Position numbers and translations under genes: made by a program. The notes beneath the pieces are model-generated. The model was not told where the DNA came from. It worked only from the letters and a program-made list of their open reading frames with translations, and did no database searches. This document shows, piece by piece, positions 12,494-14,422 of a stretch of DNA of 38,815 nucleotides. Every line of letters starts with the position of its first letter. Position 1 is the stretch's first letter. Origin of the DNA: Alphaproteobacteria bacterium (GTDB lineage: Bacteria > Pseudomonadota > Alphaproteobacteria > UBA6615); NCBI GenBank assembly GCA_002727315.1, contig PBWR01000008.1:1-38815 (forward strand), read 5' to 3'.

Positions 12494-13054
12494 ATGGCAA
12501 TGTACTGGCTCGACCACGTCAACATTCGCACCAGCCGGCTCGATGAGATGTCGGCGTTTTACGAGGATGTCCTGGGCCTGAAGCGCGGCAGGCGCCCGGC
12601 ATTCCAGTTCGGTGGTGCCTGGCACTATTGCGGCACCCAGGCGATCGTCCACCTGGTGGAATCCGCGAAAAGTATCAAGACTGGTGAGGCCCAGGTCGAA
12701 CATTTCGCCCTGCGCGCCGGCGGCAGCATGAGGAGCTTCCAGCGCAAGCTGCGCGAGCATGATGCGCCATACGAAGTTATCGATCTGCTCGATATCAACA
12801 TGCGCCAGGTCAACGTATTTGATCCGGACGGCAACAAGATCGAGGTCCAGTTTGCCGCGTCCGACAATGACGATCGCGAGCCGTTCCCTGGCAAGAGCGC
12901 CGGGGCGAAACGGCGTTTCCGGAAAGGCGCGGACCTGAACACCACGCCGCCCATGACCCTCAAGAACTCGAAAGCGAAGGTCTCGAAGACGAACCGGAAG
13001 CTGGGCACCCCGAAACCCATCACCGCCCCGAAGCGGCGCGCGCGCAACGCCTGA
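12494..13054 (+). CDS. VOC (glyoxalase/bleomycin-resistance) family protein with basic tail
   Basis: This is a 186-residue protein. Residues 1-125 form one vicinal-oxygen-chelate domain: it starts YWLDHVNIRTSRLDEMSAFYEDVLGLK and ends NVFDPDGNKIEVQF, with candidate metal ligands at the first His and the last Glu. The last 60 residues are unusually rich in Lys, Arg and Pro, look disordered and are not part of the VOC fold; they may bind nucleic acid or be a lineage-specific tail. The reaction is unknown. It precedes the Sec-peroxiredoxin-like gene on the same strand by 77 bases. Confidence 0.88.
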   Translation: MAMYWLDHVNIRTSRLDEMSAFYEDVLGLKRGRRPAFQFGGAWHYCGTQAIVHLVESAKSIKTGEAQVEHFALRAGGSMRSFQRKLREHDAPYEVIDLLDINMRQVNVFDPDGNKIEVQFAASDNDDREPFPGKSAGAKRRFRKGADLNTTPPMTLKNSKAKVSKTNRKLGTPKPITAPKRRARNA

Positions 13055-13099: not shown

Positions 13100-13131
13100 A
13101 ATGTAGTGCGTTCGATCACGGAGAGTTTTCG

Positions 13132-13731
13132 ATGAAGGGCCCAGTTTTCCTGAAAACCATGCTGGCCAAAGGATTGGGGATTGCGGCAGTGGCCGGAGCG
13201 CTGGTCCTGCACGCCCCGAATCCAGCCTCGGCGCAAGGCGCCGATGCGGCCGAGGTCGGCAAGGTCATCCCGCATTCGCTGGAAGTGCCCGACCAAAACA
13301 ACCAGGAGCAGAATTTCCAGGGCCTGAGCCGCAAGAAGGGCCTGATCCTGATCTTCTCCCGCTCCCTGTCATGGTGACCCTATTGCATTGTCCAGGCGGT
13401 CGCCTGGAACGAGAGGATCGACGAAGTTCACAAGCTCGGCTACAAGGTCGCGACGGCCACCTATGACGATGTGGGCAAGCTAAAGCGCCTGGCCCGCCGC
13501 CAGAAAATGGACATTCCGCTGCTGTCGGACGAGGGTTCGGAGATCATCCAGGCCTTCGGACTGCTCACGGGCTATCCGCAGGGCACGTTCTATTACGGTG
13601 TGCCGCACCCCGCGATCGTCGTGCTGGGTACCGACGGCGCGGTCGCCCACTGCTTCACCGCGCGGCATTACTCCCAGCGGCCCGAGATCGATGACGTGCT
13701 GGCGGTGCTGCGCAAGGACGCCACGAGCTAA
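13132..13731 (+). CDS. Exported selenocysteine-containing peroxiredoxin-like thiol-disulfide oxidoreductase (in-frame TGA at residue 82)
   Basis: The gene is read as one 199-residue CDS in which the TGA at 13375-13377 encodes selenocysteine. Residues 1-34 look like a Sec signal peptide ending ASA before QGA, so the protein probably acts in the periplasm. The mature part is an AhpC/TSA-redoxin domain: GLILIFSRSLSW, then U82-P-Y-C85 where Cys homologues have WCPYC. The same frame continues with the family's RIDEVHKLGYKVATATYDD, IPLLSDEGSEIIQAFGLL and HPAIVVLGTDGAV. A perfect-stem hairpin with a GGUC loop follows the TGA by 20 bases. The ATG has a GGAGAG ribosome-binding site 7 bases upstream. 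UxxC peroxiredoxin-like proteins are known among bacterial selenoproteins. A nonsense mutation is the alternative, but the position and hairpin argue against it. Confidence 0.91.
13391..13408 (+). promoter_or_regulatory. Putative bacterial SECIS element of the peroxiredoxin-like gene
   Basis: The stem TCCAGGC (13391-13397) with GCCTGGA (13402-13408) has seven Watson-Crick pairs and the loop GGTC (13398-13401). Twenty bases separate the TGA at 13375-13377 from the loop. Loop sequence and spacing match the E. coli fdhF SECIS pattern and the hairpin in the CMD gene at 2092-2111. It should bind SelB and direct selenocysteine insertion. Confidence 0.86.
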
Positions 13732-13755: not shown

Positions 13756-13780
13756 AAAGGCCACCCCTGGGGCGGCCTTT
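13756..13780. terminator. Bidirectional terminator between the Sec-peroxiredoxin-like gene and rpsD
   Basis: AAAGGCC (13756-13762) pairs with GGCCTTT (13774-13780), with an inner CCCC/GGGG pairing. The A-run on the left and T-run on the right allow it to stop transcription from both sides. It sits between the convergent stops at 13731 and 13808. Confidence 0.8.
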
Positions 13781-13807: not shown

Positions 13808-14422
13808 TCAGAGCGAGTAATACTCGACGACCAGGTTCGGCTCCATCGTCACCGGGTAGGGCACATCGGCCAGCTTCGGCCCGCGTACGTAGGTGCCCTT
13901 GAGGTTGTTCAGGTCGACATCGAGATATTCCGGCAGGTCACGCTCGGTCGAGGCGATCGCCTCGAGCACCAGCGGCAGCTCGCGGGACTTGTCCTTGACC
14001 TCGATCACGTCGCCATCCTTCACCTGATAGGACGGGATGTTGACCTTCTTGCCGTTCACACGGATATGGCCGTGATTGACGAACTGGCGGGCCGCAAAAA
14101 TCGTCGGCACAAACTTCATGCGATAGACGACCGCGTCCAGGCGCCGCTCGAGCAGCTCGATCAGGTTCTCGCCCGTATCACCGCGACGGCGCACGGCTTC
14201 GTCGTAGTAGCGACGGAACTGGCGCTCGCCGACGTCACCGTAATACTTGCGGAGTTTCTGCTTGGCGATCAGGTGGAGGCCGTAATCCGAGGGCTTCTTG
14301 CGCCGGCGGCCATGTTCGCCGGGGCCGTGCTCACGGCGGTTCACCGGGCTTTTCGGCCGGCCCCAGAGGTTTTCGCCGAGACGGCGATCAATCTTGTACT
14401 TCGCGGAATGCCGCTTTGACAT
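13808..14422 (-). CDS. rpsD: 30S ribosomal protein S4
   Basis: S4 is a primary 16S rRNA-binding protein that starts small-subunit assembly. The 204-residue length and sequence are standard: [21 protein letters not shown] at the start, [10 protein letters not shown], the S4 RNA-binding region [34 protein letters not shown] from about residue 91, and a C-terminus ending in VVEYYSL. It stands alone on the minus strand, as is usual in alphaproteobacteria. A TATAGC hexamer lies upstream on the minus strand but no convincing -35 element was found. Confidence 0.98.

Follow-up and report, generated by a model that had tools for sequence, protein, structure and literature searches.

Peroxiredoxin-like selenoproteins with a UXXC motif have been known since at least 2005 and are described in the accessible text of PMC1088965, and the families Prx-like 1-3 are listed in the available part of PMC2398784. 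Likewise, the available sections of a 2026 catalogue (PMC13188914) name a "Prx-like thiol:disulfide oxidoreductase" (PF00578, UxxC/UxxU) and a "redoxin family protein" (PF08534, UxxC). The window analyzed here, meaning the whole stretch of 38,815 nucleotides, belongs to an alphaproteobacterial genome bin (G000) and encodes a protein with the Prx-type domain and the UxxC motif that define the survey family in the accessible text of PMC1088965. The gene is very probably a real selenoprotein gene and an additional example of this known kind of protein.

A single in-frame TGA (13375-13377) interrupts an otherwise open frame at 13132-13731 (ATG at 13132, TAA at 13729-13731), with no additional stop or frameshift between the TGA and the TAA. 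The translation begins with MKGPVFL...ASAQ... and reads ...FSRSLSW-U-PYCIVQAVAW... around the TGA, which bears out the first-pass annotation, where the TGA was placed in SW-U-P-Y-C with the same frame continuing to 13731. The seemingly stop-broken gene is very probably intact, with the TGA read as selenocysteine (Sec). The features of the locus are as follows:

12494..13054, plus strand: upstream neighbor, a glyoxalase-superfamily (VOC) protein with an ordinary TGA stop
13120..13123, plus strand: GGAG, a likely ribosome-binding site as read from the sequence, 8 nt 5' of the ATG
13132..13731, plus strand: selenoprotein gene including its TAA, 199 residues long, residue 82 being Sec
13132..13233, plus strand: probable signal peptide (residues 1-34), likely cleaved after A-S-A, by a heuristic
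13375..13377, plus strand: UGA, codon of Sec82 according to translation and alignment
13384..13386, plus strand: codon of Cys85, which is paired with Sec82 in UxxC; TGC in 20/20 Sec rows of alignment A1
13391..13408, plus strand: predicted SECIS upper stem-loop, a perfect 7-bp stem of TCCAGGC (13391-13397) and GCCTGGA (13402-13408) around the loop GGTC (13398-13401)
13756..13780, no strand assigned: G+C-rich inverted repeat (from the fold) lying between the selenoprotein gene and its convergent neighbor rpsD, perhaps serving both as a terminator
13808..14422, minus strand: downstream convergent neighbor, ribosomal protein S4 (rpsD)

We hold with high confidence that the gene encodes an exported, PrxQ-like W-U-P-Y-C selenoprotein whose UGA82 is decoded via SelB, tRNA-Sec and the SECIS at 13391-13408. 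Under this proposal, SelB and tRNA-Sec would act with the hairpin to insert Sec at codon 82, and the protein would be exported to the periplasm. There, the Sec82 selenol would serve as the attacking nucleophile and a Sec82-Cys85 selenenylsulfide would form, as in UxxC thiol-disulfide oxidoreductases, with the pair reducing disulfides or peroxides. The computed evidence comprises the conserved TGA, the hairpin across copies, the coding constraint after the TGA, the link to selA, the fold, and a signal-peptide-like N-terminus; Sec insertion itself, export, substrate and electron donor are what we infer.

The family was delimited by searches at several levels. Of 60 relatives searched, 32 gave at least one match at E <= 1e-3, often to a distant redoxin, and the close matches with one TGA come from the window's family. 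With the family alignment (E <= 1e-25), 24 genomes available for the order were searched and 14 proved to have members, of which 13 (that of the window included) have TGA copies and one, G008, has a Cys copy. In alignment A1, which contains 20 Sec rows and one Cys row and omits both damaged G021 copies as well as the contig-edge and internally deleted G018 copies, the TGA occupies the same column in 20/20 Sec rows from 12 genomes, and therefore is not a sequencing error. Outside the order, in other families of the class, TGA copies are present in G231, G320, G397, G114 (three copies), G145, G248 and G361. At E <= 1e-25, W-U-x-x-C with TGA is found in 19 genomes, including that of the window, and Cys copies in G008, G158, G339, G189 and G205. 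UxxC homologues, which the first-pass annotation had proposed to look for, are thus present with their TGA at this position in many related genomes. In 385 genomes drawn from the class, with at most eight candidates scored per genome, 20 had a match at E <= 1e-12. The family alignment also matches 11 named MAG records labeled Alphaproteobacteria, Rhodospirillaceae or Proteobacteria, on which basis the class is regarded as Alphaproteobacteria. A plasmid search gave 10 records at an identity of only 24-28%, and a single-protein contig scan (29 stretches) gave no relative, its motif pattern having Cys codons that TGA copies could not match.

Most relatives have two tandem copies, separated by 2.1 kb in G005 and by about 0.1 kb in G002, G003 and G006, and the genome of the window has a single one. 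Within the genus, the copy adjoining the VOC gene is WUPTC (PT) and the copy adjoining S4 is WUPYC (PY); other copies show the variants UPFC, UTPC and UAPC. At 9 of the 11 loci examined, the family gene has VOC as well as ribosomal protein S4 next to it, and on the short contig L055 it is accompanied by S4 only. The Cys locus of G008 (L063) has neither neighbor and is therefore not the same place. Damage to the gene in close relatives, which had been put forward as an argument against a selenoprotein, was encountered in part, in both copies of G021 and in one internally deleted copy of G018. The pair in G021 (L061:7668-9035), a genome with selA, is probably decaying: its PT copy has TAA in place of the Sec codon as well as additional stops, and the frame of its PY copy is lost. 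In the third copy of G018 (L062:1238-1774, minus strand), some 40 residues are missing around the Sec motif, through internal deletion or misassembly.

The presence of TGA copies follows that of selA, which was found over the cut-off in 18/19 genomes with TGA copies versus 0/5 with Cys copies (E <= 1e-25; Fisher p 1.4e-4, an optimistic value because the genomes are related). Not counted in the Fisher table are G361 (TGA, E 2.1e-13), a genome with selA, and five genomes with weaker matches free of TGA (G325, G180, G069, G064 and G310), none of them over the selA cut-off. The Cys counterparts presumed in the first-pass annotation do occur at the TGA position, in genomes without selA over the cut-off. 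All of selA, selB, selD and tRNA-Sec are present in 6/6 same-genus relatives: within 13-17 kb in G002, G005 and G006, with selA, selB and a tRNA-Sec on one contig and selD on another in G001 and G004, and spread over small contigs in G003. One of the two selD genes over the cut-off in G001 (G001:C88:2112-3044, L048), a bin rated 7% contaminated, has an in-frame TGA, as in Sec-containing SelD. Also, inside or beside the sel block of five same-genus relatives there is another Prx-like gene, whose WUPYC contains the TGA and which has no signal peptide (L067:1243-1713, L068:10318-10788 and L071:2322-2792 on the minus strand; L069:15923-16393 and L072:17265-17735). In these five genes, a strict test gave no comparable simple hairpin at the usual place (p 0.976-0.996).

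The exception among the 19 TGA genomes is the window's own bin, of 2.24 Mb and 87.18% completeness. Searches of this incomplete bin gave no selA, and no selB or selD over the cut-off. The tRNA-Sec model gave 15 hits, one barely over the cut-off at 51.4 bits, versus 64.5-72.3 bits for the tRNA-Sec genes of the relatives; ARAGORN, run on five of the hit loci, assigned four to tRNA-Ser (including the 51.4-bit one) and the fifth to tRNA-Tyr plus tRNA-Gly, and no tRNA-Sec was found in G000 at E <= 1e-12. At the same time, the flank of the sel block in G006 (L067:17492-19986) aligns at 79% to G000:C24:426275-428757, that is, to the very end of C24 (428757 in length), which stops 8.4 kb short of the position of selA in G006. 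This flank is common to G006, G002, G004 and G001, the G005 stretch examined ending before it; on the opposite side of the sel block G000 has just short scattered matches, so that only one edge of the presumed gap is seen. Since 6/6 relatives have the sel genes and C24 ends in the sel-block flank, an assembly gap is the likelier reason for their lack in the bin, and one missing stretch would explain it. An absence of the Sec machinery had been named at the outset as speaking against a selenoprotein; it applies in part, as the machinery was not found in the bin, but the end of C24 makes a gap likely.

Alternatively, the gene could belong to a Sec family in an organism that truly lost its sel genes, the window copy being recently dead and yielding an 81-residue fragment. 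The lack of selA, of selB and selD over the cut-off and of a convincing tRNA-Sec would fit such a loss, as would the small genome and the single copy, which sits on a longer branch than those of the genus relatives (0.37 versus 0.05-0.09). We nevertheless regard it as improbable, given the end of C24 in the shared sel-block flank, the frame free of further stops and frameshifts after the TGA, the intact hairpin and invariant residues, and a divergence after the TGA that is in step with that of the DMT neighbors.

Three further readings, namely sequencing error, reassigned UGA and a split gene, were rejected. The TGA is one base from TGC or TGT, but its recurrence in W-U-x-x-C across the 19 genomes makes an error, or the appearance by chance of a TGA in a gene for a Cys protein, barely conceivable. 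Decoding of UGA as tryptophan or by general readthrough, under which the frame would be open as well, is just as remote, considering that Cys stands at this residue in genomes without selA, that TGA copies accompany selA, and that the upstream VOC gene and both family copies of G022 end at TGA. As for two separate short genes, a mechanical ORF of 86 aa does begin at GTG 13471; however, residues 83-113, between the TGA and 13471, hold the invariant Cys85, Trp92, Asn93, Gly103 and Asp112, and the Pfam domain spans the TGA, which renders this arrangement very improbable.

Regarding the hairpin, the perfect 7-bp stem with a GGUC loop reported in the first-pass annotation holds, and the distance of 20 bases given there is that from the TGA to the loop, the stem starting 13 nt after the TGA. 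The bacterial SECIS model, as given in the available legend of Fig. 2 of PMC13188914, comprises a loop of 3-9 nt, a stem of 4-16 bp, a G in the first two loop positions, a distance of 16-37 nt from the UGA and an MFE <= -7.5, and the window hairpin lies within these bounds (loop 4, stem 7, GG, 20 nt, -13.9 kcal/mol). Compared with chance, it has z -2.31 (37 nt) and z -1.23 (52 nt), and an equally long stem arises in 14% of random synonymous recodings of the window gene (p 0.14); by itself, the hairpin is only mildly exceptional. For other Sec copies of the order, synonymous recoding gives p 0.13-0.54, a weak test because the Q-A-V-A-W peptide itself favors the hairpin. An Rfam search of 13300-13500 gave no match. 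Given that the single-sequence tests are weak, the case for the hairpin rests on comparison.

Covariation in the stem was evaluated on alignment A3 (22 copies, 19 distinct), to which the copy of G018 at a contig edge and the PY copy of G021 were added. The 7-pair stem is paired in 90.2% of 133 cells, versus 4.5-50.4% when the partners are slid. In 3/19 distinct rows, from two genera, one inner pair is A-U in place of G-C, another is G-U in 7 rows, and the outermost is unpaired in 13/19 rows, so that the common stem is 6 bp. The covariation score lies above 500/500 shuffles, unlike the number of double-change pairs (1 versus 0.4; 215 of 500) or of additional pair types (3 versus 3.4). The loop codons GCG and GTC are invariant in 20/20 Sec rows and are the sole fixed four-fold columns (2/34). 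Sec copies of the window's family reach 5.5-7 in the stem statistic, versus 2.5-5 for four Cys copies, and the folding energy is <= -7.5 in 16/16 Sec copies folded, the GGUC hairpin being the minimum-energy fold in 13 and a different fold in 3. In the same family, the Cys copy of G008 (WCVFC) has no GGTC hairpin, and another 5-bp stem is possible. Four distant Sec copies (L137, L142, L143 and L151) form stems that differ in sequence and place the loop at an identical position or one base further on (recoding p 0.015-0.089). The SECIS of E. coli fdhF has a GGUC apical loop like that of the window hairpin, on another stem. In addition, a distant UPYC copy of G361 (L147, TGA at 1851, minus strand) has a 9-bp stem just behind its TGA, with a recoding p of 0.005.

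At the protein level, Pfam AhpC-TSA (PF00578) matches residues 43-173, spanning the TGA, at 1.8e-16 (60.6 bits, cut-off 26), and a structure model with Cys in place of Sec has the PrxQ/BCP fold (mean pLDDT 82.5; best Foldseek E 6.5e-11), so that both PF00578 and Foldseek point to a peroxiredoxin domain and fold. The peroxiredoxin motif PxxxTxxU, as given in the available part of PMC13188914, and its PxxxTxxC form are absent from the window protein, which has SxxxUxxC with an invariant Ser78. In the model, helix 83-94 begins right after residue 82, which is where a thioredoxin would have the first Cys of its CxxC. When the protein is aligned to 2cx3, Cys85 coincides with the Cys of that chain and Sec82 lies three positions earlier, and the protein is therefore not a TxxU peroxiredoxin. 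Our best inference is a periplasmic thiol-disulfide oxidoreductase or selenol peroxidase.

The signal peptide claimed in the first-pass annotation is supported by a heuristic rather than a trained predictor: K/R followed by a hydrophobic core and an AxA-type site is present in 21/21 rows of A1, with start codons chosen by script. TonB-dependent receptors, outer-membrane barrel proteins and multihaem cytochromes are exported proteins. A TonB-dependent receptor, an outer-membrane barrel protein and multihaem cytochromes are, among others, entered as selenoproteins in the available part of the 2026 catalogue (PMC13188914), which weakens the accompanying remark that exported selenoproteins are unusual. 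Two distant UPPC Sec copies (L142:1501-2400 and L151:1501-2400), with a GGTCG loop and no signal peptide by eye, have a DsbD_N domain in the same frame, a hint at a DsbD-type electron donor.

In the part after the TGA, identity between G000 and four genus relatives is 69-75%, similar to that of the two adjacent DMT transporters (67-73%); the other neighbors are at 76-81% (VOC), 78-84% (PurL-like) and 93-96% (S4). Differences to G005 after the TGA number 17, 17 and 39 at codon positions 1, 2 and 3. In the mature part before the TGA, G000 is at 63% versus 94-98% among the relatives. In a tree of 31 rows, built without G339, G361, L150 (the second copy of G114), G021 and the two partial copies of G018, all 20 Sec rows of the order cluster with three rows from G231, G320 and G397 (support 90/79, below the star), and the G008 Cys copy lies next to this cluster (99/96); the direction of the Sec/Cys change is unsure because of long branches.

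Within the genus, 51 columns separate PT from PY. Before residue 47, the three ungapped ones that G000 matches are all PT-type and the gapped ones are mixed (two PT, two PY), and after residue 56, a manual count gives 30 PY-type, 3 PT-type and 9 neither (Fisher p 0.003 for the switch, with 31 for 30). In 20-residue windows, PT is favored at residues 1-30 only, with 21-40 PY and 31-60 even. The upstream DNA of G000 resembles that of PT copies (p 0.001 for G002, 0.003 for G003, 0.026 for G006 and 0.094 for G005) more than that of PY copies (p 0.048, 0.45, 0.47 and 0.885). From these sequence comparisons, it is plausible, with moderate support, that the window gene is a recombination fusion of the two tandem paralogues, WUPTC and WUPYC, kept in relatives; a fast-evolving N-terminus is the alternative. 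More tentatively, this order of uncultured alphaproteobacteria may keep a periplasmic pair of diverged tandem selenoproteins, WUPTC and WUPYC, between the same neighbors, perhaps as a selenol relay, with the window lineage having a recombined chimera that takes its promoter and signal peptide from one copy and its active domain from the other.

On the selenoprotein reading, the lineage uses Sec in exported thioredoxin-fold proteins, often in tandem, and such genes are easily missed because standard annotation splits them at the TGA. The clear Sec and Cys relatives make Sec/Cys exchange and periplasmic selenium use testable. In the openly available literature, no paper on this subfamily was found, and that on exported and Rhodospirillaceae selenoproteins, judged from listings, gave nothing on the window's family. 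The window protein reaches no NCBIfam cut-off, the best NCBIfam E-value among other family members being 1.1e-17, and it matches the profile of the SelL-related redox protein (NF040769) weakly, at 29.4 bits, far under the 120-bit cut-off. With the PrxQ/BCP peroxiredoxins (PDB 2cx3, 3hjp and 5epf) it shares the fold and a distant sequence similarity, but not their PxxxTxxC. The Prx-like selenoproteins of the Sargasso Sea and GOS surveys, as far as their accessible descriptions go, share the AhpC-TSA/redoxin domain and the UxxC that stands in place of TxxC or TxxU, and the window family may fall within Prx-like 1, 2 or 3 of those surveys. Compared with them by description only, it differs in its probable signal peptide, its tandem pairs beside rpsD and its UPTC, UPFC, UTPC and UAPC variants.
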